A DNA stretch of 64,000 bases from NCBI GenBank assembly GCA_037783545.1, contig JBBELK010000574.1, forward strand, positions 124,001-188,000, given 5' to 3'. The translations under genes were made by a program, and so were the position numbers. Origin of the DNA: Henricia sp. BOLD:AAB3569. Its lineage: Eukaryota > Echinodermata > Asteroidea > Spinulosida > Echinasteridae. A model generated the notes under the pieces. The model was not told where the DNA came from. It saw only the letters and a program-made list of their open reading frames with translations, and searched no databases. Shown in pieces: positions 1 through 41,380 of the stretch. Each line of letters begins with the position of its first letter. The stretch's first letter is position 1.

Positions 1-30
1 CTGGGGTGCGTCAACGACAGTCCGAAGGAC

Positions 31-42
31 TGAGCATGCGCA
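31..42. promoter_or_regulatory. NRF1-like palindromic site in the monomer (one example of about 200)
   Basis: The 12 bases TGAGCATGCGCA match the NRF1 consensus YGCGCAYGCGCR at 11 of 12 positions (A in place of C at position 3). The same block is present in nearly every monomer, one per 295 bp. A few monomers change it, for example GCATGCACAC near 12737, AGAGCATGCG near 12136 and 15385, and GCATGCGAAC near 50807. Binding is not shown; the match could be chance fixed by satellite homogenisation. Confidence 0.3.
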
Positions 43-295
43 CGACTCAGGACTACACCAAAGAGGTGTGTACAGACAGCCACGGTTTGCGTGAGCAGTC
101 AGGAAGCCCCAACCCAGTTTTCCCTAAACTTTGAAATTTCTCTGCCATTTCCCGGCGAAAGTCTGTCAATTTTTTAAGACAAGTGCGCAATATAGAGAGT
201 TTGGAGCATGCAAAATTTGAAATTCGTCGGAACATTTTTCTACCTCCAAATTTGCCGACGTTTGGACCACACTTTGACCAAATTGCCGAGCCAAA

Positions 296-590
296 CTGGG
301 GTGCGTCAACGACAGTCCGAAGGACTGAGCATGCGCACGACTCAGGAGTACACCAAAGAGGTGTGTACAGACAGCCACGGTTTGCGTGAGCAGTCAGGAA
401 GCCCCAACCCAGTTTTCCCTAAACTTTGAAATTTCTCTGCCATTTCCCGGCGAAAGTCTGTCAATTTTTTAGGACAAGTGCGCAATATAGAGAGTTTGGA
501 GCATGCAAAATTTGAAGTTCGTCGGAAAATTGTTCGACCTCCAAATTTGCCGACGTTTGGACCACACTTTGACCAAATTGCCGAGCCAAA
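296..590 (+). repeat. Representative 295-bp satellite monomer
   Basis: Chosen as a clean example of the unit. By hand count a typical monomer holds 72 C, 71 G and 16 CpG. It contains several short inverted repeats near its start: CAGTCC-GAA-GGACTG, then CTGAG...CTCAG, then ACACC-AAAGA-GGTGT. Near its end it carries a degenerate internal direct repeat, CCAAATTTGCCGA and CCAAATTGCCGA about 30 bp apart, which hints that the monomer itself grew by local duplication. It has no pol III B box and no convincing similarity to a transposon end. Confidence 0.9.
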
Positions 591-896
591 CTGGGGTGCG
601 TCAACGACAGTCCGAAGGACTGAGCATGCGCACGACTCAGGAGTACACCAAAGAGGTGTGTACAGACAGCCACGGTTTGCGTGAGCAGTCAGGAAGCCCC
701 AACCCAGTTTTCCCTAAACTTTGAAATTTCTCTGCCATTTCCCGGCGAAAGTCTGTCCATTTTTTAGGACAAGTGCGCAATATAGAGAGTTTGGAGCATG
801 CAAAATTTGAAGTTCGTCGGAACATTTTTCGACCTCCAAATTTGCCGACGTTTGGACCACACTTTGACCAAATTGCCGAGCCAAACTGGGGTGCGT

Positions 897-1181
897 TGTT
901 GTTGTTGTTGTATATTTTATGGCATCTTCGGCAACTAAGGCCCTTTATGCCATCAACTATACGGTTTTAGCTTTAACTATACTATATTAGTTACTTGAGA
1001 TGAGGAAGAAGGAGTTGCAGTTTTAGAAGTGGGAGGAAAACTCCCAGAGAAATGCCCCAGGGGAAAACCCACGCGGTCAAGTAGGGACTGCAAACCCAAT
1101 CCACATACACGCCCCGGATTCGAACCCGGGACCCCAGAGGTGAAAGGCGAGGAAAGAACCCGTACGCCAACCCGACCGCCC
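897..1181 (-). mobile_element. tRNA-derived SINE with Nin-DC-like domain, copy 1
   Basis: On the minus strand the element starts GGGCGGTCGGGTTGGCG, has an A-box-like segment (complement of 1159-1169) and a perfect pol III B box GGTTCGAATCC (complement of 1116-1126). A central block follows, GTGGGTTTTCCCC...GTTTTCCTCCCAC...AAAACTGC, resembling the Nin-DC domain of eumetazoan SINEs. It ends in a (CAA)n tail, read as TTG repeats at 897-911. The 12-bp direct repeat ACTGGGGTGCGT at 885-896 and 1182-1193 is the target-site duplication within the satellite monomer. There is no protein; such elements are moved by a partner LINE. The Nin-DC assignment is from memory of the motif. Confidence 0.88.
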
Positions 1182-2963
1182 ACTGGGGTGCGTCAACGAC
1201 AGTCCGAAGGACTGAGCATGCGCACGACTCAGGAGTACACCAAAGAGGTGTGTACAGACAGCCACGGTTTGCGTGAGCAGTCAGGAAGCCCCAACACAGT
1301 TTTCCCTAAACTTTGAAATTTCTCTGCCATTTCCCGGCGAAAGTCTGTCAATTTTTTAGGACAAGTGCGCAATATAGAGAGTTTGGAGCATGCAAAATTT
1401 GAAGTTCGTCGGAACATTTTTCGACCTCCAAATTTGCCGACGTTTGGACCACACTTTGACCAAATTGCCGAGCCAAACTGGGGTGCGTCAACGACAGTCC
1501 GAAGGACTGAGCATGCGCACGACTCAGGAGTACACCAAAGAGGTGTGTACAGACAGCCACGGTTTGCGTGAGCAGTCAGGAAGCCCCAACCCAGTTTTCC
1601 CTAAACTTTGAAATTTCTCTGCCATTTCCCGGCGAAAGTATGTCAATTTTTTAGGACAAGTGCGCAATATAGAGAGTTTGGAGCATGCAAAATTTGAAGT
1701 TCGTCGGAAAATTGTTCGACCTCCAAATTTGCCGACGTTTGGACCACACTTTGACCAAATTGCCGAGCCAAACTGGGGTGCGTCAACGACAGTCCGAAGG
1801 ACTGAGCATGCGCACGACTCAGGACTACACCAAAGAGGTGTGTACAGACAGCCACGGTTTGCGTGAGCAGTCAGGAAGCCCCAACCCAGTTTTCCCTAAA
1901 CTTTGAAATTTCTCTGCCATTTCCCGGCGAAAGTCTGTCAATTTTTTAAGACAAGTGCGCAATATAGAGAGTTTGGAGCATGCAAAATTTGAAATTCGTC
2001 GGAACATTTTTATACCTCCAAATTTGCCGACGTTTGGACCACACTTTGACCAAATTGCCGAGCCAAACTGGGGTGCGTCAACGACAGTCCGAAGGACTGA
2101 GCATGCGCACGACTCAGGAGTACACCAAAGAGGTGTGTACAGACAGCCACGGTTTGCGTGAGCAGTCAGGAAGCCCCAACCCAGTTTTCCCTAAACTTTG
2201 AAATTTCTCTGCCATTTCCCGGCGAAAGTCTGTCAATTTTTTAGGACAAGTGCGCAATATAGAGAGTTTGGAGCATGCAAAATTTGAAGTTCGTCGGAAA
2301 ATTGTTCGACCTCCAAATTTGCCGACGTTTGGACCACACTTTGACCAAATTGCCGAGCCAAACTGGGGTGCGTCAACGACAGTCCGACGGACTGAGCATG
2401 CGCACGACTCAGGAGTACACCAAAGAGGTGTGTACAGACAGCCACGGTTTGCGTGAGCAGTCAGGAAGCCCCAACCCAGTTTTCCCTAAACTTTGAAATT
2501 TCTCTGCCATTTCCCGGCGAAAGTCTGTCAATTTTTTAGGACAAGTGCGCAATATAGAGAGTTTGGAGCATGCAAAATTTGAAGTTCGTCGGAAAATTGT
2601 TCGACCTCCAAATTTGCCGACGTTTGGACCACACTTTGACCAAATTGCCGAGCCAAACTGGGGTGCGTCAACGACAGTCCGAAGGACTGAGCATGCGCAC
2701 GACTCAGGAGTACACCAAAGAGGTGTGTACAGACAGCCACGGTTTGCGTGAGCAGTCAGGAAGCCCCAACCCAGTTTTCCCTAAACTTTGAAATTTCTCT
2801 GCCATTTCCCGGCGAAAGTCTGTCCATTTTTTAGGACAAGTGCGCAATATAGAGAGTTTGGAGCATGCAAAATTTGAAGTTCGTCGGAACATTTTTCGAC
2901 CTCCAAATTTGCCGACGTTTGGACCACACTTTAACCAAATTGCCGAGCCAAACTGGGGTGCGT

Positions 2964-3248
2964 TGTTGTTGTTGTTGTATATTTTATGGCATCTTCGGCA
3001 ACTAAGGCCCTTTATGCCATCAACTATACGGTTTTAGCTTTAACTATACTATATTAGTTACTTGAGATGAGGAAGAAGGAGTTGCAGTTTTAGAAGTGGG
3101 AGGAAAACTCCCAGAGAAATGCCCCAGGGGAAAACCCACGCGGTCAAGTAGGGACTGCAAACCCAATCCACATACACGCCCCGGATTCGAACCCGGGACC
3201 CCAGAGGTGAAAGGCGAGGAAAGAACCCGTACGCCAACCCGACCGCCC
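2964..3248 (-). mobile_element. tRNA-derived SINE, copy 2
   Basis: Same 285-bp sequence, same insertion point and same 12-bp flanking repeats as the copy at 897-1181. Its upstream flank has CTTTAACCAAATTG instead of CTTTGACCAAATTG, a mark shared with the copy at 5919-6203, so these two descend from one amplified unit. Confidence 0.88.
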
Positions 3249-4146
3249 ACTGGGGTGCGTCAACGACAGTCCGAAGGACTGAGCATGCGCACGACTCAGG
3301 AGTACACCAAAGAGGTGTGTACAGACAGCCACGGTTTGCGTGAGCAGTCAGGAAGCCCCAACACAGTTTTCCCTAAACTTTGAAATTTCTCTGCCATTTC
3401 CCGGCGAAAGTCTGTTAATTTTTTTAGGACAAGTGCGCAATATAGAGAGTTTGGAGCATGCAAAATTTGAAATTCGTCGGAACATTTTTCTACCTCCAAA
3501 TTTGCCGACGTTTGGACCACACTTTGACCAAATTGCCGAGCCAAACTGGGGTGCGTCAACGACAGTCCGAAGGACTGAGCATGCGCACGACTCAGGAGTA
3601 CACCAAAGAGGTGTGTACAGACAGCCACGGTTTGCGTGAGCAGTCAGGAAGCCCCAACCCAGTTTTCCCTAAACTTTGAAATTTCTCTGCCATTTCCCGG
3701 CGAAAGTCTGTCAATTTTTTAGGACAAGTGCGCAATATAGAGAGTTTGGAGCATGCAAAATTTGAAGTTCGTCGGAAAATTGTTCGACCTCCAAATTTGC
3801 CGACGTTTGGACCACACTTTGACCAAATTGCCGAGCCAAACTGGGGTGCGTCAACGACAGTCCGAAGGACTGAGCATGCGCACGACTCAGGAGTACACCA
3901 AAGAGGTGTGTACAGACAGCCACGGTTTGCGTGAGCAGTCAGGAAGCCCCAACCCAGTTTTCCCTAAACTTTGAAATTTCTCTGCCATTTCCCGGCGAAA
4001 GTCTGTCCATTTTTTAGGACAAGTGCGCAATATAGAGAGTTTGGAGCATGCAAAATTTGAAGTTCGTCGGAACATTTTTCGACCTCCAAATTTGCCGACG
4101 TTTGGACCACACTTTGACCAAATTGCCGAGCCAAACTGGGGTGCGT

Positions 4147-4431
4147 TGTTGTTGTTGTTGTATATTTTATGGCATCTTCGGCAACTAAGGCCCTTTATGC
4201 CATCAACTATACGGTTTTAGCTTTAACTATACTATATTAGTTACTTGAGATGAGGAAGAAGGAGTTGCAGTTTTAGAAGTGGGAGGAAAACTCCCAGAGA
4301 AATGCCCCAGGGGAAAACCCACGCGGTCAAGTAGGGACTGCAAACCCAATCCACATACACGCCCCGGATTCGAACCCGGGACCCCAGAGGTGAAAGGCGA
4401 GGAAAGAACCCGTACGCCAACCCGACCGCCC
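4147..4431 (-). mobile_element. tRNA-derived SINE, copy 3
   Basis: Same sequence, orientation and flanks as the copy at 897-1181, from which it is displaced by 3250 bp. The neighbouring monomers match at the same offset (478/3728, 1365/4615, 1660/4910), so the SINE moved as part of a larger satellite block. Confidence 0.88.
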
Positions 4432-5918
4432 ACTGGGGTGCGTCAACGACAGTCCGAAGGACTGAGCATGCGCACGACTCAGGAGTACACCAAAGAGGTG
4501 TGTACAGACAGCCACGGTTTGCGTGAGCAGTCAGGAAGCCCCAACACAGTTTTCCCTAAACTTTGAAATTTCTCTGCCATTTCCCGGCGAAAGTCTGTCA
4601 ATTTTTTAGGACAAGTGCGCAATATAGAGAGTTTGGAGCATGCAAAATTTGAAGTTCGTCGGAACATTTTTCGACCTCCAAATTTGCCGACGTTTGGACC
4701 ACACTTTGACCAAATTGCCGAGCCAAACTGGGGTGCGTCAACGACAGTCCGAAGGACTGAGCATGCGCACGACTCAGGAGTACACCAAAGAGGTGTGTAC
4801 AGACAGCCACGGTTTGCGTGAGCAGTCAGGAAGCCCCAACCCAGTTTTCCCTAAACTTTGAAATTTCTCTGCCATTTCCCGGCGAAAGTATGTCAATTTT
4901 TTAGGACAAGTGCGCAATATAGAGAGTTTGGAGCATGCAAAATTTGAAGTTCGTCGGAAAATTGTTCGACCTCCAAATTTGCCGACGTTTGGACCACACT
5001 TTGACCAAATTGCCGAGCCAAACTGGGGTGCGTCAACGACAGTCCGAAGGACTGAGCATGCGCACGACTCAGGACTACACCAAAGAGGTGTGTACAGACA
5101 GCCACGGTTTGCGTGAGCAGTCAGGAAGCCCCAACCCAGTTTTCCCTAAACTTTGAAATTTCTCTGCCATTTCCCGGCGAAAGTCTGTCAATTTTTTAGG
5201 ACAAGTGCGCAATATAGAGAGTTTGGAGCATGCAAAATTTGAAGTTCGTCGGAAAATTGTTCGACCTCCAAATTTGCCGACGTTTGGACCACACTTTGAC
5301 CAAATTGCCGAGCCAAACTGGGGTGCGTCAACGACAGTCCGACGGACTGAGCATGCGCACGACTCAGGAGTACACCAAAGAGGTGTGTACAGACAGCCAC
5401 GGTTTGCGTGAGCAGTCAGGAAGCCCCAACCCAGTTTTCCCTAAACTTTGAAATTTCTCTGCCATTTCCCGGCGAAAGTCTGTCAATTTTTTAGGACAAG
5501 TGCGCAATATAGAGAGTTTGGAGCATGCAAAATTTGAAGTTCGTCGGAAAATTGTTCGACCTCCAAATTTGCCGACGTTTGGACCACACTTTGACCAAAT
5601 TGCCGAGCCAAACTGGGGTGCGTCAACGACAGTCCGAAGGACTGAGCATGCGCACGACTCAGGAGTACACCAAAGAGGTGTGTACAGACAGCCACGGTTT
5701 GCGTGAGCAGTCAGGAAGCCCCAACCCAGTTTTCCCTAAACTTTGAAATTTCTCTGCCATTTCCCGGCGAAAGTCTGTCCATTTTTTAGGACAAGTGCGC
5801 AATATAGAGAGTTTGGAGCATGCAAAATTTGAAGTTCGTCGGAACATTTTTCGACCTCCAAATTTGCCGACGTTTGGACCACACTTTAACCAAATTGCCG
5901 AGCCAAACTGGGGTGCGT

Positions 5919-6203
5919 TGTTGTTGTTGTTGTATATTTTATGGCATCTTCGGCAACTAAGGCCCTTTATGCCATCAACTATACGGTTTTAGCTTTAACT
6001 ATACTATATTAGTTACTTGAGATGAGGAAGAAGGAGTTGCAGTTTTAGAAGTGGGAGGAAAACTCCCAGAGAAATGCCCCAGGGGAAAACCCACGCGGTC
6101 AAGTAGGGACTGCAAACCCAATCCACATACACGCCCCGGATTCGAACCCGGGACCCCAGAGGTGAAAGGCGAGGAAAGAACCCGTACGCCAACCCGACCG
6201 CCC
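5919..6203 (-). mobile_element. tRNA-derived SINE, copy 4
   Basis: Same 285-bp sequence and insertion point as the other copies. It carries the CTTTAACC flank mark of copy 2, from which it is displaced by 2955 bp together with the two preceding monomers. Confidence 0.88.
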
Positions 6204-7985
6204 ACTGGGGTGCGTCAACGACAGTCCGAAGGACTGAGCATGCGCACGACTCAGGAGTACACCAAAGAGGTGTGTACAGACAGCCACGGTTTGCGTGAGC
6301 AGTCAGGAAGCCCCAACACAGTTTTCCCTAAACTTTGAAATTTCTCTGCCATTTCCCGGCGAAAGTCTGTCAATTTTTTAGGACAAGTGCGCAATATAGA
6401 GAGTTTGGAGCATGCAAAATTTGAAGTTCGTCGGAACATTTTTCGACCTCCAAATTTGCCGACGTTTGGACCACACTTTGACCAAATTGCCGAGCCAAAC
6501 TGGGGTGCGTCAACGACAGTCCGAAGGACTGAGCATGCGCACGACTCAGGAGTACACCAAAGAGGTGTGTACAGACAGCCACGGTTTGCGTGAGCAGTCA
6601 GGAAGCCCCAACCCAGTTTTCCCTAAACTTTGAAATTTCTCTGCCATTTCCCGGCGAAAGTATGTCAATTTTTTAGGACAAGTGCGCAATATAGAGAGTT
6701 TGGAGCATGCAAAATTTGAAGTTCGTCGGAAAATTGTTCGACCTCCAAATTTGCCGACGTTTGGACCACACTTTGACCAAATTGCCGAGCCAAACTGGGG
6801 TGCGTCAACGACAGTCCGAAGGACTGAGCATGCGCACGACTCAGGACTACACCAAAGAGGTGTGTACAGACAGCCACGGTTTGCGTGAGCAGTCAGGAAG
6901 CCCCAACCCAGTTTTCCCTAAACTTTGAAATTTCTCTGCCATTTCCCGGCGAAAGTCTGTCAATTTTTTAAGACAAATGCGCAATATAGAGAGTTTGGAG
7001 CATGCACAATTTGAAATTCGTCGGAACATTTTTCTACCTCCAAATTTGCCGACGTTTGGACCACACTTTGACCAAATTGCCGAGCCAAACTGGGGTGCGT
7101 CAACGACAGTCCGAAGGACTGAGCATGCGCACGACTCAGGAGTACACCAAAGAGGTGTGTACAGACAGCCACGGTTTGCGTGAGCAGTCAGGAAGCCCCA
7201 ACCCAGTTTTCCCTAAACTTTGAAATTTCTCTGCCATTTCCCGGCGAAAGTCTGTCAATTTTTTAGGACAAGTGCGCAATATAGAGAGTTTGGAGCATGC
7301 AAAATTTGAAGTTCGTCGGAAAATTGTTCGACCTCCAAATTTGCCGACGTTTGGACCACACTTTGACCAAATTGCCGAGCCAAACTGGGGTGCGTCAACG
7401 ACAGTCCGAAGGACTGAGCATGCGCACGACTCAGGAGTACACCAAAGAGGTGTGTACAGACAGCCACGGTTTGCGTGAGCAGTCAGGAAGCCCCAACCCA
7501 GTTTTCCCTAAACTTTGAAATTTCTCTGCCATTTCCCGGCGAAAGTCTGTCAATTTTTTAGGACAAGTGCGCAATATAGAGAGTTTGGAGCATGCAAAAT
7601 TTGAAGTTCGTCGGAAAATTGTTCGACCTCCAAATTTGCCGACGTTTGGACCACACTTTGACCAAATTGCCGAGCCAAACTGGGGTGCGTCAACGACAGT
7701 CCGAAGGACTGAGCATGCGCACGACTCAGGAGTACACCAAAGAGGTGTGTACAGACAGCCACGGTTTGCGTGAGCAGTCAGGAAGCCCCAACCCAGTTTT
7801 CCCTAAACTTTGAAATTTCTCTGCCATTTCCCGGCGAAAGTCTGTCCATTTTTTAGGACAAGTGCGCAATATAGAGAGTTTGGAGCATGCAAAATTTGAA
7901 GTTCGTCGGAACATTTTTCGACCTCCAAATTTGCCGACGTTTGGACCACACTTTGACCAAATTGCCGAGCCAAACTGGGGTGCGT

Positions 7986-8270
7986 TGTTGTTGTTGTTGT
8001 ATATTTTATGGCATCTTCGGCAACTAAGGCCCTTTATGCCATCAACTATACGGTTTTAGCTTTAACTATACTATATTAGTTACTTGAGATGAGGAAGAAG
8101 GAGTTGCAGTTTTAGAAGTGGGAGGAAAACTCCCAGAGAAATGCCCCAGGGGAAAACCCACGCGGTCAAGTAGGGACTGCAAACCCAATCCACATACACG
8201 CCCCGGATTCGAACCCGGGACCCCAGAGGTGAAAGGCGAGGAAAGAACCCGTACGCCAACCCGACCGCCC
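7986..8270 (-). mobile_element. tRNA-derived SINE, copy 5
   Basis: Same sequence, orientation and target-site flanks as the other four. It is the last copy; none occurs from 8271 to 64000. The following monomers at about 8370-9290 keep the CCCCAACACAG variant that immediately follows every SINE copy, so the SINE-linked haplotype extends three monomers further here. Confidence 0.88.
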
Positions 8271-9633
8271 ACTGGGGTGCGTCAACGACAGTCCGAAGGA
8301 CTGAGCATGCGCACGACTCAGGAGTACACCAAAGAGGTGTGTACAGACAGCCACGGTTTGCGTGAGCAGTCAGGAAGCCCCAACACAGTTTTCCCTAAAC
8401 TTTGAAATTTCTCTGCCATTTCCCGGCGAAAGTCTGTCAATTTTTTAGGACAAGTGCGCAATATAGAGAGTTTGGAGCATGCAAAATTTGAAGTTCGTTG
8501 GAACATTTTTCGACCTCCAAATTTGCCGACGTTTGGACCACACTTTGACCAAATTGCCGAGCCAAACTGGGGTGCGTCAACGACAGTCCGAAGGACTGAG
8601 CATGCGCACGACTCAGGAGTACACCAAAGAGGTGTGTACAGACAGCCACGGTTTGCGTGAGCAGTCAGGAAGCCCCAACACAGTTTTCCCTAAACTTTGA
8701 AATTTCTCTGCCATTTCCCGGCGAAAGTCTGTCAATTTTTTAGGACAAGTGCGCAATATAGAGAGTTTGGAGCATGCAAAATTTGAAGTTCGTCGGAACA
8801 TTTTTCGACCTCCAAATTTGCCGACGTTTGGACCACACTTTGACCAAATTGCCGAGCCAAACTGGGGTGCGTCAACGACAGTCCGAAGGACTGAGCATGC
8901 GCACGACTCAGGACTACACCAAAGAGGTGTGTACAGACAGCCACGGTTTGCGTGAGCAGTCAGGAAGCCCCAACACAGTTTTCCCTAAACTTTGAAATTT
9001 CTCTGCCATTTCCCGGCGAAAGTCTGTCAATTTTTTAGGACAAGTGCGCAATATAGAGAGTTTGGAGCATGCAAAATTTGAAGTTCGTCGGAACATTTTT
9101 CGACCTCCAAATTTGCCGACGTTTGGACCACACTTTGACCAAATTGCCGAGCCAAACTGGGGTGCGTCAACGACAGTCCGAAGGACTGAGCATGCGCACG
9201 ACTCAGGAGTACACCAAAGAGGTGTGTACAGACAGCCACGGTTTGCGTGAGCAGTCAGGAAGCCCCAACACAGTTTTCCCTAAACTTTGAAATTTCTCTG
9301 CCATTTCCCGGCGAAAGTCTGTCAATTTTTTAGGACAAGTGCGCAATATAGAGAGTTTGGAGCATGCAAAATTTGAAGTTCGTCGGAACATTTTTCGACC
9401 TCCAAATTTGCCGACGTTTGGACCACACTTTGACCAAATTGCCGAGCCAAACTGGGGTGCGTCAACGACAGTCCGAAGGACTGAGCATGCGCACGACTCA
9501 GGACTACACCAAAGAGGTGTGTACAGACAGCCACGGGTTGCGTGAGCAGTCAGGAAGCCCCAACCCAGTTTTCCCTAAACTTTGAAATTTCTCTGCCATT
9601 TCCCGGCGAAAGTCTGTCAATTTTTTAGGACAA

Positions 9634-12600
9634 GTGCGCAATATAGAGAGTTTGGAGCATGCAAAATTTGAAATTCGTCGGAACATTTTTCTACCTCCAA
9701 ATTTGCCGACGTTTGGACCACACTTTGACCAAATTGCCGAGCCAAACTGGGGTGCGTCAACGACAGTCCGAAGGACTGAGCATGCGCACGACTCAGGAGT
9801 ACACCAAAGAGGTGTATACAGACAGCCACGGTTTGCGTGAGCAGTCAGGAAGCCCCAACCCAGTTTTCCCTAAACTTTGAAATTTCTCTGCCATTTCCCG
9901 GCGAAAGTATGTCAATTTTTTAGGACAAGTGCGCAATATAGAGAGTTTGGAGCATGCAAAATTTGAAGTTCGTCGGAAAATGTTTCGACCTCCAAATTTG
10001 CCGACGTTTGGACCACACTTTGACCAAATTGCCGAGCCAAACTGGGGTGCGTCAACGACAGTCCGAAGGACTGAGCATGCGCACGACTCAGGAGTACACC
10101 AAAGAGGTGTGTACAGACAGCCACGGTTTGCGTGAGCAGTCAGGAAGCCCCAACCCAGTTTTCCCTAAACTTTGAAATTTCTCTGCCATTTCCCGGCGAA
10201 AGTATGTCAATTTTTTAGGACAAGTGCGCAATATAGAGAGTTTGGAGCATGCAAAATTTGAAGTTCGTCGGAAAATGTTTCGACCTCCAAATTTGCCGAC
10301 GTTTGGACCACACTTTGACCAAATTGCCGAGCCAAACTGGGGTGCGTCAACGACAGTCCGAAGGACTGAGCATGCGCACGACTCAGGACTACACCAAAGA
10401 GGTGTGTACAGACAGCCACGGTTTGCGTGAGCAGTCAGGAAGCCCCAACCCAGTTTTCTCTAAACTTTGAAATTTCTCTGCCATTTCCCGGCGAAAGTCT
10501 GTAAATTTTTTAGGACAAGTGCGCAATATAGAGAGTTTGGAGCATGCAAAATTTGAAGTTCGTCGGAACATTGTTCGACCTCCAAATTTGCCGACGTTTG
10601 GACCACACTTTGACCAAATTGCCGAGCCAAACTGGGGTGCGTCAACGACAGTCCGAAGGACTGAGCATGCGCACGACTCAGGAGTACACCAAAGAGGTGT
10701 GTACAGACAGCCACGGTTTGCGTGAGCAGTCAGGAAGCCCCAACCCAGTTTTCCCTAAACTTTGAAATTTCTCTGCCATTTCCCGGCGAAAGTCTGTCAA
10801 TTTGTTAGGACAAGTGCGCAATATAGAGAGTTTGGAGCATGCAAAATTTGAAGTTCGTCGGAACATTTTTCGACCTACAAATTTGCCGACGTTTGGACCA
10901 CACTTTGACCAAATTGCCGAGCCAAACTGGGGTGCGTCAACGACAGTCCGAAGGACTGAGCATGCGCACGACTCAGGAGTACACCAAAGAGGTGTGTACA
11001 GACAGCCACGGTTTGCGTGAGCAGTCAGGAAGCCCCAACCCAGTTTTCCCTAAACTTTGAAATTTCTCTGCCATTTCCCGGCGAAAGTATGTCAATTTTT
11101 TAGGACAAGTGCGCAATATAGAGAGTTTGGAGCATGCAAAATTTGAAGTTCGTCGGAAAATTTTTCGACCTCCAAATTTGCCGACGTTTGGACCACACTT
11201 TGACCAAATTGCCGAGCCAAACTGGGGTGCGTCAACGACAGTCCGAAGGACTGAGCATGCGCACGACTCAGGACTACACCAAAGAGGTGTGTACAGACAG
11301 CCACAGTTTGCGTGAGCAGTCAGGAAGCCCCAACCCAGTTTTCTCTAAACTTTGAAATTTCTCTGCCATTTCCCGGCGAAAGTCTGTAAATTTTTTAGGA
11401 CAAGTGCGCAATATAGAGAGTTTGGAGCATGCAAAATTTGAAGTTCGTCGGAACATTGTTCGACCTCCAAATTTGCCGACGTTTGGACCACACTTTGACC
11501 AAATTGCCGAGCCAAACTGGGGTGCGTCAACGACAGTCCGAAGGACTGAGCATGCGCACGACTCAGGAGTACACCAAAGAGGTGTGTACAGACAGCCACG
11601 GTTTGCGTGAGCAGTCAGGAAGCCCCAACCCAGTTTTCCCTAAACTTTGAAATTTCTCTGCCATTTCCCGGCGAAAGTATGTCAATTTTTTAGGACAAGT
11701 GCGCAATATAGAGAGTTTGGAGCATGCAAAATTTGAAGTTCGTCGGAAAATGTTTCGACCTCCAAATTTGCCGACGTTTGGACCACACTTTGACCAAATT
11801 GCCGAGCCAAACTGGGGTGCGTCAACGACAGTCCGAAGGACTGAGCATGCGCACGACTCAGGACTACACCAAAGAGGTGTGTACAGACAGCCACGGTTTG
11901 CGTGAGCAGTCAGGAAGCCCCAACCCAGTTTTCCCTAAACTTTGAAATTTCTCTGCCATTTCCCGGCGAAAGTCTGTCAATTTTTTAAGACAAGTGCGCA
12001 ATATAGAGAGTTTGGAGCATGCACAATTTGAAGTTCGTCGGAAAATGTTTCGACCTCCAAATTTGCCGACGTTTGGACCACACTTTGACCAAATTGCCGA
12101 GCCAAACTGGGGTGCGTCAACGACAGTCCGAAGGACAGAGCATGCGCACGACTCAGGAGTACACCAAAGAGGTATGTACAGACAGCCACGGTTTGCGTGA
12201 GCAGTCAGGAAGCCCCAACCCAGTTTTCCCTAAACTTTGAAATTTCTCTGCCATTTCCCGGCGAAAGTCTGTCAATTTGTTAGGACAAGTGCGCAATATA
12301 GAGAGTTTGGAGCATGCAAAATTTGAAGTTCGTCGGAACATTTTTCGACCTACAAATTTGCCGACGTTTGGACCACACTTTGACCAAATTGCCGAGCCAA
12401 ACTGGGGTGCGTCAACGACAGTCCGAAGGACTGAGCATGCGCACGACTCAGGAGTACACCAAAGAGGTGTGTACAGACAGCCACGGTTTGCGTGAGCAGT
12501 CAGGAAGCCCCAACCCAGTTTTCCCTAAACTTTGAAATTTCTCTGCCATTTCCCGGCGAAAGTATGTCAATTTTTTAGGACAAGTGCGCAATATAGAGAG

Positions 12601-12882: not shown

Positions 12883-15800
12883 GTGCGCAATATAGAGAGT
12901 TTGGAGCATGCAAAATTTGAAATTCGTCGGAACATTTTTCTACCTCCAAATTTGCCGACGTTTGGACCACACTTTGACCAAATTGCCGAGCCAAACTGGG
13001 GTGCGTCAACGACAGTCCGAAGGACTGAGCATGCGCACGACTCAGGAGTACACCAAAGAGGTGTGTACAGACAGCCACGGTTTGCGTGAGCAGTCAGGAA
13101 GCCCCAACCCAGTTTTCCCTAAACTTTGAAATTTCTCTGCCATTTCCCGGCGAAAGTATGTCAATTTTTTAGGACAAGTGCGCAATATAGAGAGTTTGGA
13201 GCATGCAAAATTTGAAGTTCGTCGGAAAATGTTTCGACCTCCAAATTTGCCGACGTTTGGACCACACTTTGACCAAATTGCCGAGCCAAACTGGGGTGCG
13301 TCAACGACAGTCCGAAGGACTGAGCATGCGCACGACTCAGGAGTACACCAAAGAGGTGTGTACAGACAGCCACGGTTTGCGTGAGCAGTCAGGAAGCCCC
13401 AACCCAGTTTTCCCTAAACTTTGAAATTTCTCTGCCATTTCCCGGCGAAAGTATGTCAATTTTTTAGGACAAGTGCGCAATATAGAGAGTTTGGAGCATG
13501 CAAAATTTGAAGTTCGTCGGAAAATGTTTCGACCTCCAAATTTGCCGACGTTTGGACCACACTTTGACCAAATTGCCGAGCCAAACTGGGGTGCGTCAAC
13601 GACAGTCCGAAGGACTGAGCATGCGCACGACTCAGGACTACACCAAAGAGGTGTGTACAGACAGCCACGGTTTGCGTGAGCAGTCAGGAAGCCCCAACCC
13701 AGTTTTCTCTAAACTTTGAAATTTCTCTGCCATTTCCCGGCGAAAGTCTGTAAATTTTTTAGGACAAGTGCGCAATATAGAGAGTTTGGAGCATGCAAAA
13801 TTTGAAGTTCGTCGGAACATTGTTCGACCTCCAAATTTGCCGACGTTTGGACCACACTTTGACCAAATTGCCGGGCCAAACTGGGGTGCGTCAACGACAG
13901 TCCGAAGGACTGAGCATGCGCACGACTCAGGAGTACACCAAAGAGGTGTGTACAGACAGCCACGGTTTGCGTGAGCAGTCAGGAAGCCCCAACCCAGTTT
14001 TCCCTAAACTTTGAAATTTCTCTGCCATTTCCCGGCGAAAGTCTGTCAATTTGTTAGGACAAGTGCGCAATATAGAGAGTTTGGAGCATGCAAAATTTGA
14101 AGTTCGTCGGAACATTTTTCGACCTACAAATTTGCCGACGTTTGGACCACACTTTGACCAAATTGCCGAGCCAAACTGGGGTGCGTCAACGACAGTCCGA
14201 AGGACTGAGCATGCGCACGACTCAGGAGTACACCAAAGAGGTGTGTACAGACAGCCACGGTTTGCGTGAGCAGTCAGGAAGCCCCAACCCAGTTTTCCCT
14301 AAACTTTGAAATTTCTCTGCCATTTCCCGGCGAAAGTATGTCAATTTTTTAGGACAAGTGCGCAATATAGAGAGTTTGGAGCATGCAAAATTTGAAGTTC
14401 GTCGGAAAATTTTTCGACCTCCAAATTTGCCGACGTTTGGACCACACTTTGACCAAATTGCCGAGCCAAACTGGGGTGCGTCAACGACAGTCCGAAGGAC
14501 TGAGCATGCGCACGACTCAGGACTACACCAAAGAGGTGTGTACAGACAGCCACAGTTTGCGTGAGCAGTCAGGAAGCCCCAACCCAGCTTTCTCTAAACT
14601 TTGAAATTTCTCTGCCATTTCCCGGCGAAAGTCTGTAAATTTTTTAGGACAAGTGCGCAATATAGAGAGTTTGGAGCATGCAAAATTTGAAGTTCGTCGG
14701 AACATTGTTCGACCTCCAAATTTGCCGACGTTTGGACCACACTTTGACCAAATTGCCGAGCCAAACTGGGGTGCGTCAACGACAGTCCGAAGGACTGAGC
14801 ATGCGCACGACTCAGGAGTACACCAAAGAGGTGTGTACAGACAGCCACGGTTTGCGTGAGCAGTCAGGAAGCCCCAACCCAGTTTTCCCTAAACTTTGAA
14901 ATTTCTCTGCCATTTCCCGGCGAAAGTAAGTCAATTTTTTAGGACAAGTGCGCAATATAGAGAGTTTGGAGCATGCAAAATTTGAAGTTCGTCGGAAAAT
15001 GTTTCGACCTCCAAATTTGCCGACGTTTGGACCACACTTTGACCAAATTGCCGAGCCAAACTGGGGTGCGTCAACGACAGTCCGAAGGACTGAGCATGCG
15101 CACGACTCAGGACTACACCAAAGAGGTGTGTACAGACAGCCACGGTTTGCGTGAGCAGTCAGGAAGCCCCAACCCAGTTTTCCCTAAACTTTGAAATTTC
15201 TCTGCCATTTCCCGGCGAAAGTCTGTCAATTTTTTAAGACAAGTGCGCAATATAGAGAGTTTGGAGCATGCACAATTTGAAGTTCGTCGGAAAATGTTTC
15301 GACCTCCAAATTTGCCGACGTTTGGACCACACTTTGACCAAATTGCCGAGCCAAACTGGGGTGCGTCAACGACAGTCCGAAGGACAGAGCATGCGCACGA
15401 CTCAGGAGTACACCAAAGAGGTGTGTACAGACAGCCACGGTTTGCGTGAGCAGTCAGGAAGCCCCAACCCAGTTTTCCCTAAACTTTGAAATTTCTCTGC
15501 CATTTCCCGGCGAAAGTCTGTCAATTTGTTAGGACAAGTGCGCAATATAGAGAGTTTGGAGCATGCAAAATTTGAAGTTCGTCGGAACATTTTTCGACCT
15601 ACAAATTTGCCGACGTTTGGACCACACTTTGACCAAATTGCCGAGCCAAACTGGGGTGCGTCAACGACAGTCCGAAGGACTGAGCATGCGCACGACTCAG
15701 GAGTACACCAAAGAGGTGTGTACAGACAGCCACGGTTTGCGTGAGCAGTCAGGAAGCCCCAACCCAGTTTTCCCTAAACTTTGAAATTTCTCTGCCATTT

Positions 15801-25860: not shown

Positions 25861-28800
25861 GTGCGCAATATAGAGAGTTTGGAGCATGCAAAATTTGAAG
25901 TTCGTCGGAACATGTTCGACCTCCAAATTTGCCGACGTTTGGACCACACTTTGACCAAATTGCCGAGCCAAACTGGGGTGCGTCAACGACAGTCCGAAGG
26001 ACTGAGCATGCGCACGACTCAGGAGTACACCAAAGAGGTGTGTACAGACAGCCACGGTTTGCGTGAGCAGTCAGGAAGCCCCAACCCAGTTTTCCCTAAA
26101 CTTTGAAATTTCTCTGCCATTTCCCGGCGAAAGTCTGTCAATTTGTTAGGACAAGTGCGCAATATAGAGAGTTTGGAGCATGCAAAATTTGAAGTTCGTC
26201 GGAACATTTTTCGACCTACAAATTTGCCGACGTTTGGACCACACTTTGACCAAATTGCCGAGCCAAACTGGGGTGCGTCAACGACAGTCCGAAGGACTGA
26301 GCATGCGCACGACTCAGGAGTACACCAAAGAGGTGTGTACAGACAGCCACGGTTTGCGTGAGCAGTCAGGAAGCCCCAACCCAGTTTTCCCTAAACTTTG
26401 AAATTTCTCTGCCATTTCCCGGCGAAAGTCTGTCAATTTTTTAGGACAAGTGCGCAATATAGAGAGTTTGGAGCATGCAAAATTTGAAATTCGTCGGAAC
26501 ATTTTTCTACCTCCAAATTTGCCGACGTTTGGACCACACTTTGACCAAATTGCCGAGCCAAACTGGGGTGCGTCAACGACAGTCCGAAGGACTGAGCATG
26601 CGCACGACTCAGGAGTACACCAAAGAGGTGTGTACAGACAGCCACGGTTTGCGTGAGCAGTCAGGAAGCCCCAACCCAGTTTTCCCTAAACTTTGAAATT
26701 TCTCTGCCATTTCCCGGCGAAAGTATGTCAATTTTTTAGGACAAGTGCGCAATATAGAGAGTTTGGAGCATGCAAAATTTGAAGTTCGTCGGAAAATGTT
26801 TCGACCTCCAAATTTGCCGACGTTTGGACCACACTTTGACCAAATTGCCGAGCCAAACTGGGGTGCGTCAACGACAGTCCGAAGGACTGAGCATGCGCAC
26901 GACTCACGACTCAGGACTACACCAAAGAGGTGTGTACAGACAGCCACGGTTTGCGTGAGCAGTCAGGAAGCCCCAACCCAGTTTTCTCTAAACTTTGAAA
27001 TTTCTCTGCCATTTCCCGGCGAAAGTCTGTAAATTTTTTAGGACAAGTGCGCAATATAGAGAGTTTGGAGCATGCAAAATTTGAAGTTCGTCGGAACATG
27101 TTCGACCTCCAAATTTGCCGACGTTTGGACCACACTTTGACCAAATTGCCGAGCCAAACTGGGGTGCGTCAACGACAGTCCGAAGGACTGAGCATGCGCA
27201 CGACTCAGGAGTACACCAAAGAGGTGTGTACAGACAGCCACGGTTTGCGTGAGCAGTCAGGAAGCCCCAACCCAGTTTTCCCTAAACTTTGAAATTTCTC
27301 TGCCATTTCCCGGCGAAAGTCTGTCAATTTGTTAGGACAAGTGCGCAATATAGAGAGTTTGGAGCATGCAAAATTTGAAGTTCGTCGGAACATTTTTCGA
27401 CCTACAAATTTGCCGACGTTTGGACCACACTTTGACCAAATTGCCGAGCCAAACTGGGGTGCGTCAACGACAGTCCGAAGGACTGAGCATGCGCACGACT
27501 CAGGACTACACCAAAGAGGTGTGTACAGACAGCCACGGTTTGCGTGAGCAGTCAGGAAGCCCCAACCCAGTTTTCCCTAAACTTTGAAATTTCTCTGCCA
27601 TTTCCCGGCGAAAGTCTGTCAATTTTTTAAGACAAGTGCGCAATATAGAGAGTTTGGAGCATGCAAAATTTGAAATTCGTCGGAACATTTTTCTACCTCC
27701 AAATTTGCCGACGTTTGGACCACACTTTGACCAAATTGCCGAGCCAAACTGGGGTGCGTCAACGACAGTCCGAAGGACTGAGCATGCGCACGACTCAGGA
27801 GTACACCAAAGAGGTGTGTACAGACAGCCACGGTTTGCGTGAGCAGTCAGGAAGCCCCAACCCAGTTTTCCCTAAACTTTGAAATTTCTCTGCCATTTCC
27901 CGGCGAAAGTCTGTCAATTTTTTAGGACAAGTGCGCAATATAGAGAGTTTGGAGCATGCAAAATTTGAAATTCGTCGGAACATTTTTCTACCTCCAAATT
28001 TGCCGACGTTTGGACCACACTTTGACCAAATTGCCGAGCCAAACTGGGGTGCGTCAACGACAGTCCGAAGGACTGAGCATGCGCACGACTCAGGAGTACA
28101 CCAAAGAGGTGTGTACAGACAGCCACGGTTTGCGTGAGCAGTAAGGAAGCCCTAACCCAGTTTTCCCTAAACTTTGAAATTTCTCTGCCATTTCCCGGCG
28201 AAAGTATGTCAATTTTTTAGGACAAGTGCGCAATATAGAGAGTTTGGAGCATGCAAAATTTGAAATTCGTCGGAACATTTTTCTACCTCCAAATTTGCCG
28301 ACGTTTGGACCACACTTTGACCAAATTGCCGAGCCAAACTGGGGTGCGTCAACGACAGTCCGAAGGACTGAGCATGCGCACGACTCAGGAGTACACCAAA
28401 GAGGTGTGTACAGACAGCCACGGTTTGCGTGAGCAGTCAGGAAGCCCCAACCCAGTTTTCCCTAAACTTTGAAATTTCTCTGCCATTTCCCGGCGAAAGT
28501 ATGTCAATTTTTTAGGACAAGTGCGCAATATAGAGAGTTTGGAGCATGCAAAATTTGAAGTTCGTCGGAAAATTTTTCGACCTCCAAATTTGCCGACGTT
28601 TGGACCACACTTTGACCAAATTGCCGAGCCAAACTGGGGTGCGTCAACGACAGTCCGAAGGACTGAGCATGCGCACGACTCAGGACTACACCAAAGAGGT
28701 GTGTACAGACAGCCACGGTTTGCGTGAGCAGTCAGGAAGCCCCAACCCAGTTTTCCCTAAACTTTGAAATTTCTCTGCCATTTCCCGGCGAAAGTCTGTC

Positions 28801-29648
28801 AATTTTTTAGGACAAGTGCGCAATATAGAGAGTTTGGAGCATGCAAAATTTGAAATTCGTCGGAACATTTTTCTACCTCCAAATTTGCCGACGTTTGGAC
28901 CACACTTTGACCAAATTGCCGAGCCAAACTGGGGTGCGTCAACGACAGTCCGAAGGACTGAGCATGCGCACGACTCAGGAGTACACCAAAGAGGTGTGTA
29001 CAGACAGCCACGGTTTGCGTGAGCAGTCAGGAAGCCCCAACCCAGTTTTCCCTAAACTTTGAAATTTCTCTGCCATTTCCCGGCGAAAGTATGTCAATTT
29101 TTTAGGACAAGTGCGCAATATAGAGAGTTTGGAGCATGCAAAATTTGAAGTTCGTCGGAAAATGTTTCGACCTCCAAATTTGCCGACGTTTGGACCACAC
29201 TTTGACCAAATTGCCGAGCCAAACTGGGGTGCGTCAACGACAGTCCGAAGGACTGAGCATGCGCACGACTCAGGACTACACCAAAGAGGTGTGTACAGAC
29301 AGCCACGGTTTGCGTGAGCAGTCAGGAAGCCCCAACCCAGTTTTCCCTAAACTTTGAAATTTCTCTGCCATTTCCCGGCGAAAGTCTGTCAATTTTTTAA
29401 GACAAGTGCGCAATATAGAGAGTTTGGAGCATGCAAAATTTGAAATTCGTCGGAACATTTTTCTACCTCCAAATTTGCCGACGTTTGGACCACACTTTGA
29501 CCAAATTGCCGAGCCAAACTGGGGTGCGTCAACGACAGTCCGAAGGACTGAGCATGCGCACGACTCAGGAGTACACCAAAGAGGTGTGTACAGACAGCCA
29601 CGGTTTGCGTGAGCAGTCAGGAAGCCCCAACCCAGTTTTCCCTAAACT
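25726..29648 (+). repeat. 3923-bp segmental tandem duplication, copy 1
   Basis: This block recurs immediately at 29649-33571. All marker variants repeat at an offset of exactly 3923 bp: a 7-bp GACTCAC duplication near 26905 and 30828, GCAGTAAGGAAGCCCTAACC near 28140 and 32063, and 293-bp monomers with GGAACATGTTCG. The length is 13 monomers plus 88 bp, so the junction does not respect the monomer register. Confidence 0.92.
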
Positions 29649-32600
29649 CAGGACTACACCAAAGAGGTGTGTACAGACAGCCACGGTTTGCGTGAGCAGT
29701 CAGGAAGCCCCAACCCAGTTTTCTCTAAACTTTGAAATTTCTCTGCCATTTCCCGGCGAAAGTCTGTAAATTTTTTAGGACAAGTGCGCAATATAGAGAG
29801 TTTGGAGCATGCAAAATTTGAAGTTCGTCGGAACATGTTCGACCTCCAAATTTGCCGACGTTTGGACCACACTTTGACCAAATTGCCGAGCCAAACTGGG
29901 GTGCGTCAACGACAGTCCGAAGGACTGAGCATGCGCACGACTCAGGAGTACACCAAAGAGGTGTGTACAGACAGCCACGGTTTGCGTGAGCAGTCAGGAA
30001 GCCCCAACCCAGTTTTCCCTAAACTTTGAAATTTCTCTGCCATTTCCCGGCGAAAGTCTGTCAATTTGTTAGGACAAGTGCGCAATATAGAGAGTTTGGA
30101 GCATGCAAAATTTGAAGTTCGTCGGAACATTTTTCGACCTACAAATTTGCCGACGTTTGGACCACACTTTGACCAAATTGCCGAGCCAAACTGGGGTGCG
30201 TCAACGACAGTCCGAAGGACTGAGCATGCGCACGACTCAGGAGTACACCAAAGAGGTGTGTACAGACAGCCACGGTTTGCGTGAGCAGTCAGGAAGCCCC
30301 AACCCAGTTTTCCCTAAACTTTGAAATTTCTCTGCCATTTCCCGGCGAAAGTCTGTCAATTTTTTAGGACAAGTGCGCAATATAGAGAGTTTGGAGCATG
30401 CAAAATTTGAAATTCGTCGGAACATTTTTCTACCTCCAAATTTGCCGACGTTTGGACCACACTTTGACCAAATTGCCGAGCCAAACTGGGGTGCGTCAAC
30501 GACAGTCCGAAGGACTGAGCATGCGCACGACTCAGGAGTACACCAAAGAGGTGTGTACAGACAGCCACGGTTTGCGTGAGCAGTCAGGAAGCCCCAACCC
30601 AGTTTTCCCTAAACTTTGAAATTTCTCTGCCATTTCCCGGCGAAAGTATGTCAATTTTTTAGGACAAGTGCGCAATATAGAGAGTTTGGAGCATGCAAAA
30701 TTTGAAGTTCGTCGGAAAATGTTTCGACCTCCAAATTTGCCGACGTTTGGACCACACTTTGACCAAATTGCCGAGCCAAACTGGGGTGCGTCAACGACAG
30801 TCCGAAGGACTGAGCATGCGCACGACTCACGACTCAGGACTACACCAAAGAGGTGTGTACAGACAGCCACGGTTTGCGTGAGCAGTCAGGAAGCCCCAAC
30901 CCAGTTTTCTCTAAACTTTGAAATTTCTCTGCCATTTCCCGGCGAAAGTCTGTAAATTTTTTAGGACAAGTGCGCAATATAGAGAGTTTGGAGCATGCAA
31001 AATTTGAAGTTCGTCGGAACATGTTCGACCTCCAAATTTGCCGACGTTTGGACCACACTTTGACCAAATTGCCGAGCCAAACTGGGGTGCGTCAACGACA
31101 GTCCGAAGGACTGAGCATGCGCACGACTCAGGAGTACACCAAAGAGGTGTGTACAGACAGCCACGGTTTGCGTGAGCAGTCAGGAAGCCCCAACCCAGTT
31201 TTCCCTAAACTTTGAAATTTCTCTGCCATTTCCCGGCGAAAGTCTGTCAATTTGTTAGGACAAGTGCGCAATATAGAGAGTTTGGAGCATGCAAAATTTG
31301 AAGTTCGTCGGAACATTTTTCGACCTACAAATTTGCCGACGTTTGGACCACACTTTGACCAAATTGCCGAGCCAAACTGGGGTGCGTCAACGACAGTCCG
31401 AAGGACTGAGCATGCGCACGACTCAGGAGTACACCAAAGAGGTGTGTACAGACAGCCACGGTTTGCGTGAGCAGTCAGGAAGCCCCAACCCAGTTTTCCC
31501 TAAACTTTGAAATTTCTCTGCCATTTCCCGGCGAAAGTCTGTCAATTTTTTAAGACAAGTGCGCAATATAGAGAGTTTGGAGCATGCAAAATTTGAAATT
31601 CGTCGGAACATTTTTCTACCTCCAAATTTGCCGACGTTTGGACCACACTTTGACCAAATTGCCGAGCCAAACTGGGGTGCGTCAACGACAGTCCGAAGGA
31701 CTGAGCATGCGCACGACTCAGGAGTACACCAAAGAGGTGTGTACAGACAGCCACGGTTTGCGTGAGCAGTCAGGAAGCCCCAACCCAGTTTTCCCTAAAC
31801 TTTGAAATTTCTCTGCCATTTCCCGGCGAAAGTCTGTCAATTTTTTAGGACAAGTGCGCAATATAGAGAGTTTGGAGCATGCAAAATTTGAAATTCGTCG
31901 GAACATTTTTCTACCTCCAAATTTGCCGACGTTTGGACCACACTTTGACCAAATTGCCGAGCCAAACTGGGGTGCGTCAACGACAGTCCGAAGGACTGAG
32001 CATGCGCACGACTCAGGAGTACACCAAAGAGGTGTGTACAGACAGCCACGGTTTGCGTGAGCAGTAAGGAAGCCCTAACCCAGTTTTCCCTAAACTTTGA
32101 AATTTCTCTGCCATTTCCCGGCGAAAGTATGTCAATTTTTTAGGACAAGTGCGCAATATAGAGAGTTTGGAGCATGCAAAATTTGAAATTCGTCGGAACA
32201 TTTTTCTACCTCCAAATTTGCCGACGTTTGGACCACACTTTGACCAAATTGCCGAGCCAAACTGGGGTGCGTCAACGACAGTCCGAAGGACTGAGCATGC
32301 GCACGACTCAGGAGTACACCAAAGAGGTGTGTACAGACAGCCACGGTTTGCGTGAGCAGTCAGGAAGCCCCAACCCAGTTTTCCCTAAACTTTGAAATTT
32401 CTCTGCCATTTCCCGGCGAAAGTATGTCAATTTTTTAGGACAAGTGCGCAATATAGAGAGTTTGGAGCATGCAAAATTTGAAGTTCGTCGGAAAATTTTT
32501 CGACCTCCAAATTTGCCGACGTTTGGACCACACTTTGACCAAATTGCCGAGCCAAACTGGGGTGCGTCAACGACAGTCCGAAGGACTGAGCATGCGCACG

Positions 32601-39446: not shown

Positions 39447-39741
39447 TATGGGCGGCCAACAGGGCAAAAAAAGACAACGCGGCAGGCAAAAAAAGACAAC
39501 GCGGCAGGCCAAAAGGACAACGCGGCAGGCCCAAAGGACAACGCGGCAGGCCGAAAGGACAACGCGGCAGGCCGAAAGAACAACGCGGCAGGCCGAAAGA
39601 ACAACGCGGCAGGCCGAAAGAACAACGCGGCAGGCCGAAAGAACAACGCGGCAGGCCGAAAGAACAACGCGGCAGGCCAAAAGAACAACGCGGCAGGCCG
39701 AAAGGACAACGCGGCAAGCCAAAAAGACACACCTTGCGCAC
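39447..39741 (+). repeat. Left terminal inverted repeat built of about twelve 21-bp units
   Basis: After the terminal bases the sequence is a tandem array of a 21-bp unit with invariant core GACAACGCGGCAGGCC or AACAACGCGGCAGGCC and a variable A-rich spacer. Because 21 is seven codons, several frames stay open and give long heptad-repeat peptides (for example TTRQAER) on both strands. These are consequences of the repeat length, not evidence of a gene. The array ends in AAAAAGACACACCTTGCGC, echoed in inverted form at the inner end of the right array. Confidence 0.88.
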
Positions 39742-39833
39742 GCCGGACTATACAACGTGAAATGAAATGGACGGGAAGCCATCAACAGACAACGCCGAAC
39801 GAACTAAAGACAACGCCGTACAAACAAAGAACA
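39742..39833 (+). other. Left-arm sequence without a counterpart on the right
   Basis: Ninety bases between the 21-bp array and the inner inverted repeat. They hold scattered, decayed echoes of the repeat core (CAGACAACGCCG, AAGACAACGCCG), suggesting degenerate outlying units. Nothing else is recognisable. Confidence 0.5.
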
Positions 39834-39902
39834 GAGGGCGCTGTTTACAGTGCTGTTCCTAGACTGGTTCTTGCTCCACATATTCCACGACTGAATATGA
39901 GG
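39834..39902 (+). repeat. Second-layer inverted repeat, left arm
   Basis: It begins AGGGCGCTGTTTACAG and continues through TAGACTGGTTC and CCACATATTCCAC. It is the reverse complement of about 42451-42527, with several mismatches and a gap of about 10 bases (CTGGCAGG is missing here). With the terminal arrays it extends the inverted ends of the element to roughly 450 bp each. Confidence 0.7.
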
Positions 39903-40098
39903 ACCGGCTACTGTGGTGTTTAAAATAGCACTTTAAAGTTGATTGCCCGTGTTTGAAAGGATTTTAAAAATTAATTAACACAAGCGAACGAATTTAGAAA
40001 GCTTACGTGTCTCTGTAACGAAAAATATCAAAAACTTAAATTTCCTACGTCGGGAATTGGAGATACAAGCCTTTTTCTTGAAACGTGCTTCACATGTT

Positions 40099-40166
40099 GT
40101 ACATGTGCGCGTACGCTCATATGTACATAGTATGTGTACAATGTACACATGTACGCGCACATGTAC
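40099..40166. repeat. Extended palindrome with TACATGTGCGCG-type arms
   Basis: GTACATGTGCGCGTAC at 40099-40114 is the perfect reverse complement of 40151-40166. Inside it, ATGTGTACA at 40132-40140 and TGTACACAT at 40142-40150 form a second stem with a one-base loop. The alternating purine-pyrimidine bases also favour Z-DNA or cruciform extrusion in principle. Confidence 0.8.
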
Positions 40167-40168
40167 AT

Positions 40169-40372
40169 TTACGTCATAACCCTGTCGATTAAATGACCTG
40201 CCAGCCATTTAATCATTTCTTGTTTTTAATCGACTGGCATTAATCCTTGACGGATTTTTACGTTCTTGGTACCAAATGAAAGCTGATAACTTTTTCTATT
40301 CTATAAAAATACCTATTTAACTTTTAAAAAAAATTGTACGCCCAAATCGGCCCAACTTTAAGCATTACGTCA
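40169..40372. promoter_or_regulatory. Two TTACGTCA (CRE/bZIP-like) motifs
   Basis: TTACGTCA occurs at 40169-40176 and 40365-40372, the first just beside the palindrome. Eight-base matches are common by chance in an A/T-rich kilobase, and no gene lies downstream for them to serve. Listed as a motif observation only. Confidence 0.12.
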
Positions 40373-40683
40373 TGCATTTATTTGGCATGAGTGTACAACA
40401 ATTTGTCTGCATCACCCAGTGAGCTCCATATTGTACATGTAGTTTTAATCTGCTGTTGCAATCCCGTAACTATAGCCATTCATACGGTTACCGTAACTAT
40501 AGCCACTGATAGCCACTGCGTAGTTTTAAATCCGTGGCATCACCATACATACACACGCAGCGGCACGCGTACGTGCACGCGACGTCAATTCAAATTCTCG
40601 AAACAATGACGAATTGTACCCGACGATTAATGGTAACGTCCGGACGACCAGACGTGCATTCGGGTAACTTCGGGAACCTTCGG

Positions 40684-40713
40684 AAAATGGCGGAAAATGT
40701 TTTAAAATGGCGG
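40684..40713 (+). promoter_or_regulatory. Paired AAAATGGCGG (YY1-like) motifs
   Basis: AAAATGGCGG occurs twice, at 40684-40693 and 40704-40713, exactly 20 bp apart, followed by further GGCGG runs. This matches the YY1 core AANATGGCGG. YY1-type sites are found in promoters of some mobile elements, but no transcription unit is evident here. Confidence 0.25.
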
Positions 40714-40786
40714 AATTGGCGGCTGCCGGACCATAAATTCAGTCTTGTCAAAAATATTTTGGTCCGGGTACCAGACTACGCTGCTC

Positions 40787-40886
40787 CTGGCAGGCTAGTC
40801 TGGTTCTCGTTCCCTACGTAGTCCCCAGACGTCTTTCAGACGTCGTCGAACTCATGCCTTGATGCAGCACAGTCTGGTTCCCTAAT
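40787..40886 (+). repeat. Nested 100-bp inverted repeat, left arm
   Basis: Starts CTGGCAGGCTAGTCTGG and ends AGTCTGGTTCCCTAAT. Its reverse complement lies at 42050-42149 with 93 of 100 bases identical by hand alignment and no gaps. Within the arm, GACGTC-TTTCA-GACGTC forms a small hairpin. The phrase AGTCTGGTTC occurs at both ends of the arm, so each arm is bounded by a short direct repeat. Confidence 0.88.
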
Positions 40887-41380
40887 ATGAAGATTAGGGC
40901 GTGTTTGTTTCATGCATAGAGTTATGTTTTTTAAAATATATAACTGTATGGTTTCACAATCCGAATCCAGATCCCGAGTTGTTTTACCACGCAGAAACAA
41001 ACGAAATGCACCCAACGAGGATCTCAAGAAAAGTCACGTCACCGTTTCGCACATGTGAAGCAAATGACCACTGCGGACTGGACTGGGTTGCAGCCTGTAA
41101 ACCCTCGGCCTCGATGTCTTGTACACTATACTCACAATAACTTAGGGATATTGTTCTGTTGTCAATTATACATTTGTTTGTTCTTTTCAAATGACTGGTT
41201 TTACCTATTCATGTGACAAGGTACAAACGATCTCTGTTAAGGTTTTGCATGAGAAGATTTTTTTTATCAATTTTTTTTCAGTTGGGTTTCATCTTTTTTT
41301 ACATTTTATTAGAAGTGTTTCATGAACTAAGCAGCACACAATTCGGTGTTAGTGGAAAACTTATGCACCTATCAGTTGTT
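40887..41380. other. Interior of nested element, no recognisable gene
   Basis: Short frames of 60-80 codons only, on both strands, with no motif I recognise. The stretch 41250-41320 is T-rich on the + strand. Confidence 0.5.

Follow-up and report, generated by a model that had tools for sequence, protein, structure and literature searches.

A 64,000-nt stretch of the genome of the sea star Henricia sp. BOLD:AAB3569 (assembly GCA_037783545.1, contig JBBELK010000574.1, positions 124,001-188,000; hereafter the window) contains a composite satellite unit that carries a transposable element. The element is a short interspersed nuclear element (SINE) present in five copies, all of which share the insertion site, orientation, target duplication and flanks within an array of a 295-bp satellite. 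As the first-pass annotation had proposed, the copies very probably descend from a single insertion that was then co-amplified with the satellite. This is supported by two 2067-bp units that differ at five positions, by linked variants and by chimeric monomers that keep the satellite register. The composite block (1-9450, plus strand; left end beyond the window, right end approximate) is wider than the 591-8565 originally assigned to it, as it begins before base 1. Because the block runs off the window, copy number can be given only as a minimum: five SINEs, with four units complete from one SINE to the next. On that count, to speak of a new composite satellite unit "in the making", as was done at first, is reasonable at the local scale.

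The satellite makes up most of the window (1-39446 and 42900-64000). Its anchor 12-mer, ACTGGGGTGCGT, has 200 matches at no more than one mismatch (shuffled sequences, mean 0.29), and the spacing between successive anchors is exactly 295 bp in 170 of 199 intervals. Nine intervals measure 297 bp; five of these are the SINE plus its 12-mer, and the remaining four (from 45747, 47518, 48405 and 52832) have no SINE match. No clear internal repeat was found within the consensus monomer (best shifted identity 0.32), and the SINE and the satellite have no meaningful similarity to each other (longest match 9 bp). A satellite probe gave 0 matches in viral contigs, of which, as a virus collection, little was expected.

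The five SINE copies are each 285 bp long, lie on the minus strand and are identical letter for letter: copy 1, the reference for comparison, at 897-1181, followed by copies 2 (2964-3248), 3 (4147-4431), 4 (5919-6203) and 5 (7986-8270), the last being the final SINE of the block. Eighteen 15-mers covering 270 of the 285 bp each occur exactly five times in the window and 0 times on the opposite strand, and a blastn search of the window (E<=1) returned only these five, with no further copies or fragments. Every copy splits the satellite monomer at the same base and is flanked on both sides by ACTGGGGTGCGT, which is native monomer sequence and forms an exact 12-bp target duplication. The left duplicates lie at 885-896 and from 2952, 4135, 5907 and 7974, and the right duplicates at 1182-1193 and from 3249, 4432, 6204 and 8271 (copies 1-5, plus strand). 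After the right-hand duplicate the normal monomer continuation, CAACGACAG, resumes in 5/5 copies. At the junctions, GGGGTGCGT passes into TGTTGTTG on the left and CCGCCC into ACTGGGG on the right. The common site, duplication and orientation thus stand as first described.

By its sequence features the element qualifies as a probable tRNA-derived SINE, with RNA polymerase III (Pol III) promoter boxes, a simple-repeat tail and a target duplication. Scored against consensus patterns, its B box, GGTTCGAATCC, matches GGTTCGANTCC exactly at SINE position 56 (1116-1126 in copy 1, minus strand), and an A-box-like stretch, TGGCGTACGGG, matches TRGCNNAGYGG in 9 of 11 positions at SINE position 13 (1159-1169, minus strand). 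The 3' tail, ACAACAACAACAACA on the minus strand, is (CAA)n. The element is not a tRNA gene, as ARAGORN found 0 genes in the window; divergence of the tRNA-like head can account for the lack of a full tRNA. An Rfam search restricted to 800-1300 gave a single match, to anti-hemB, taken as chance (15.1 bits against a gathering score of 49.5; E 0.66). SINE probes matched no viral contigs and no genome contigs; these collections comprise viruses and prokaryotes, in which hits were hardly to be expected. The middle stretch of the SINE, GTGGGTTTTCCCC...TTTTCCTCCCAC, may resemble the Deu/Meta-like central domains that are conserved in some animal SINE superfamilies.

The flanks of the SINEs carry variants of their own. 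The left marker (A169C), GTCTGTCCAT, occurs five times in the window, always in the monomer that immediately precedes a SINE on its left, as against 125 occurrences of GTCTGTCAAT. The right marker (C115A), CCCCAACACAG, occurs eight times against 177 of CCCCAACCCAG: five times just right of a SINE, and three times (8673, 8968, 9263) in later monomers that have no SINE. The linkage of flank variants claimed at first pass therefore holds as an exclusive association on the left side but not on the right.

These markers belong to a larger order of monomers. Comparison of monomer identity across offsets revealed no sharp period in the block because the lengths of the SINE-to-SINE intervals vary, and the unit was therefore read from diagnostic changes scored against the consensus. 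The type lettering is our own and rests on few variants per monomer: a, C115A; b, C164A C234A T238G; c, G54C G178A G223A G242T; d, C234A T238G; e, as d with A27C; f, A169C; and f', as f with G277A. With S for the SINE, the order of monomers in the block is c-d-f-S-a-b-c-d-e-f'-S-(a/c)-d-f-S-a-b-(c/d)-e-f'-S-a-b-c-d-d-f-S-a-a-a-a, after which the ordinary array follows. A second labelling of the block gave this order again, lacking only the first c and the chimeras. The monomer at base 1 is already of type c, and c-d-f precede the first SINE. The best split between block and following array falls at 9451 (gain 83.4), the next best at 9746 (82.2).

The full higher-order unit, SINE-a-b-c-d-e-f, measures 2067 bp. 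SINE-to-SINE spacings are 2067, 1183, 1772 and 2067 bp. Each is the sum of 297 bp, for one SINE with its 12-mer, and a whole number of monomers (6, 3, 5 and 6, respectively); the second spacing is longer by a single base. The two 2067-bp units, SINE1-a-b-c-d-e-f' (897-2963, plus strand) and SINE4-a-b-c-d-d-f (5919-7985, plus strand), differ at 5 of 2067 positions. Further, the units come in two versions that alternate X-Y-X-Y-X: SINEs 1, 3 and 5 (X) follow f, and SINEs 2 and 4 (Y) follow e-f'. By exact-string search of the window, A27C (2380 and 5335) and G277A (2931 and 5886) are found only at the two Y units. Both short units contain a chimeric monomer. In the 1183-bp unit, the 296-bp a/c monomer (3249-3544, plus strand) has C115A in its 5' part and G223A and G242T in its 3' part, in addition to a private C168T and one inserted T. 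In the 1772-bp unit, the c/d monomer (5022-5316, plus strand) has G54C in its 5' part and C234A and T238G in its 3' part.

Mean pairwise difference is 0.0180 across all 170 monomers of 295 bp, 0.0114 across the 25 such monomers of the block and 0.0013 within unit positions (21 monomers). The earlier proposal would sit poorly with SINEs more diverged than their flanks or with other insertion points in the array. The five SINEs have 0 variable sites, the flank monomers at matching positions have 5 segregating sites over 6195 bp compared, and no other insertion point was found within the 64-kb window. Flank diversity scaled to five SINEs predicts 1.06 variable sites, a figure that is only approximate since it regards the copies as a sample. 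The 0 observed (P(0)=0.35) is therefore compatible with one age for SINE and flanks. The class comparison used 21 monomers and left out the cut first c monomer (identical to the c pattern over its readable part), the chimeras at 3249 and 5022, and the a monomers at 8566, 8861 and 9156, of which that at 8861 carries one extra change, G54C.

The common site, duplication, orientation and f flank point to one insertion, and no evidence contradicting it was seen. The enzyme of retroposition, the mode of exchange and the succession of steps are inferred as follows. In a single retroposition by target-primed reverse transcription, a tRNA-derived SINE would have entered a 295-bp monomer and made the 12-bp duplication. 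Homologous exchange between misaligned monomers, by unequal sister-chromatid exchange or by an equivalent recombination-dependent replication, would then have duplicated b-c-d-e-f-SINE-a as a block. Given that X follows f and Y follows e-f', the simplest order is that the unit was duplicated, one copy acquired A27C and G277A, and the X-Y pair was duplicated a second time. Two SINE intervals may later have been shortened by in-register deletions of whole monomers; the chimeric monomers at 3249 and 5022 appear to be such losses, of the kind left by misaligned homologous exchange. SINE5 is followed by four C115A monomers in place of a-b-c-d-e-f, and this run would fit the flank that lay to the right of the SINE when it first inserted, if the duplicated piece was b-c-d-e-f-SINE-a. 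Amplification probably proceeded by exchange within the array rather than through excised circles.

Several points weigh against this history. The third monomer absent from the 1183-bp unit left no visible chimera there. The right-hand marker is shared with three monomers that have no SINE, which indicates that the local history includes single-monomer duplication as well. Right flanks are also less uniform than left flanks: that of SINE2 departs from the others after 167 bp, where the chimera lies, and that of SINE5 does so after 228 bp, with more differences at 409 and 458. In addition, tandem arrays are error-prone in assembly, and the copy number is known from the assembly alone. Finally, rolling-circle reinsertion or break-induced replication could also have amplified the array and produced similar units.

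Excised circles, replicated as rolling circles and reinserted, would be a variant of the same history with the same single insertion, and are unlikely, though the strongest of the alternatives. Satellite-derived circles have been the subject of a survey in plants (PMC2543021), rolling-circle amplification has been proposed for satellites (PMC8122249), and a two-unit circle could give the X-Y alternation. However, exchange alone explains the unequal unit lengths and the in-register chimeras, and no circle is required. A history in which the higher-order array existed first, and gene conversion carried a single inserted SINE to the corresponding site of nearby monomers, is improbable. Conversion would likewise yield identical copies with one site and one duplication, but the linked variants are common to the copies across whole units, as in the collinear 2067-bp units with their 5 differences. 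Moreover, the f marker is never found without a SINE in the window, and no SINE-free a-b-c-d-e-f order occurs among the labelled 295-bp monomers (irregular monomers being unlabelled). Pure gene conversion is disfavoured by this whole-unit collinearity, whereas conversion may have homogenised the SINE copies later.

The liability of tandem arrays to assembly error raises the further, very improbable explanation that one SINE-bearing unit was multiplied by mis-assembly. A plain echo would give exact repeats of a unit, whereas these units differ by A27C, G277A, G184A, C241A, A214C and C229T, vary in monomer number and include chimeric monomers. Independent insertions of one SINE family at a preferred monomer site have a negligible probability, even if LINE endonucleases can show site preference, and are rejected on the linked flanks and zero divergence, as there are 0 differences among the five 285-bp copies (tail included), the same rare monomer f lies on the left in 5/5, about 190 further instances of the site within the window are unused, and five random hits at one base of 295 in one orientation have a chance of (1/590)^4, or ~8e-12, before linked flank variants are counted.

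SINE and target duplication together measure 297 bp, against a monomer period of 295 bp, or about two nucleosome cores. That the insert was tolerated and amplified because it is monomer-sized is a long shot, conceived post hoc from a single case in which the 297/295 match may be coincidence. If true, exchange register and nucleosome phasing would have been nearly kept, the SINE would in effect count as one of the monomers, and each unit would have gained a Pol III B box.

Beyond the composite block, the middle array (9451-39342) has its own recurring orders of monomer types (e.g. near 9746-12106 and 12995-15355), unlike the SINE unit. Two 301-bp monomers with similar surroundings (26857-27157 and 30780-31080), about 3.9 kb apart, suggest another larger duplication there. 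A 377-bp interval at 29518-29894 includes a direct duplication of 82-83 bp. Further right, a 295-bp-spaced monomer (61093-61387) has many differences from the consensus between about 177 and 236, a pattern consistent with two compensating small indels.

The satellite is interrupted at 39447-42899 by a Foldback-type DNA element, whose inverted ends (237 bp, 96.6% identity) both contain tandem 21-bp repeats. AGGA stands on each side, and the right end has two additional T. The duplicated bases are 102-105 of the monomer. The satellite therefore continues in phase across the element, which is a genuine insertion that made a 4-bp duplication. Its open reading frames reach up to 222 aa only by way of repeats and satellite. 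When the 170 full-length monomers are divided into two compositions, the best split falls at 43094 (log-likelihood gain 219.7; next, 43683, 218.3), which is the first monomer right of the element. C164A is found in 39 of 92 middle-array monomers vs 2 of 53 to the right. A barrier to homogenisation may lie at the insert or be caused by it.

Transposons copied together with their satellite flanks are known from other hosts. ATHILA copies have been duplicated after integration in Arabidopsis centromere arrays, and bovine satellites contain inserted sequences; these elements are of the long terminal repeat type, however, and not SINEs. A SINE is the insert in human satellite I, whose Alu-bearing unit we take to be today's HSat1B/DYZ2. 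This satellite includes a male-specific 2.47-kb tandem unit in which each repeat has one Alu (Frommer et al., 1984, via PMC9909926), and the tripartite structure of HSAT 1 is described as containing AluSc (PMC7767330). It resembles the present array in having one SINE per multi-part satellite unit, amplified with the unit. The present case differs in host, SINE and satellite; its five copies keep the target duplication intact and show no SINE divergence, which leaves the founding event legible.

In the clam Donax trunculus, a full-length SINE, RUDI, likewise splits a monomer of the satellite DTHS3 precisely (PMC5139131). In contrast to the sea star array, that case is one cloned fragment in which no target duplication was found, and the portion of the report available describes no composite amplification. 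Satellites derived from transposable elements have been tabulated, including Hydromantes Hy/Pol III and Xenopus Satellite 1 among others (PMC9659126). There, too, SINE sequence ends up in tandem, but the entries available list the element itself as the source of the satellite, whereas in the sea star the SINE rides as cargo in a satellite that was already present. In relatives of Arabidopsis, a 500-bp satellite unit is thought to consist of a partly duplicated pAL1 repeat and a foreign element (PMC8122249). That insert is similarly now part of a longer satellite unit, although the accessible text does not name it as a SINE or describe a common target duplication. The amplification of a SINE inside a satellite unit is thus an already known principle, of which this array is a clear new example. 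What is unusual is its freshness and legibility: as an early case of a satellite taking a retroposon as cargo, it presents the junction, the target duplication, traces of two rounds of unit duplication and the chimeric monomers within 9 kb. Because insertion and expansion could be dated separately, it is well suited to illustrate how satellite turnover can be timed.

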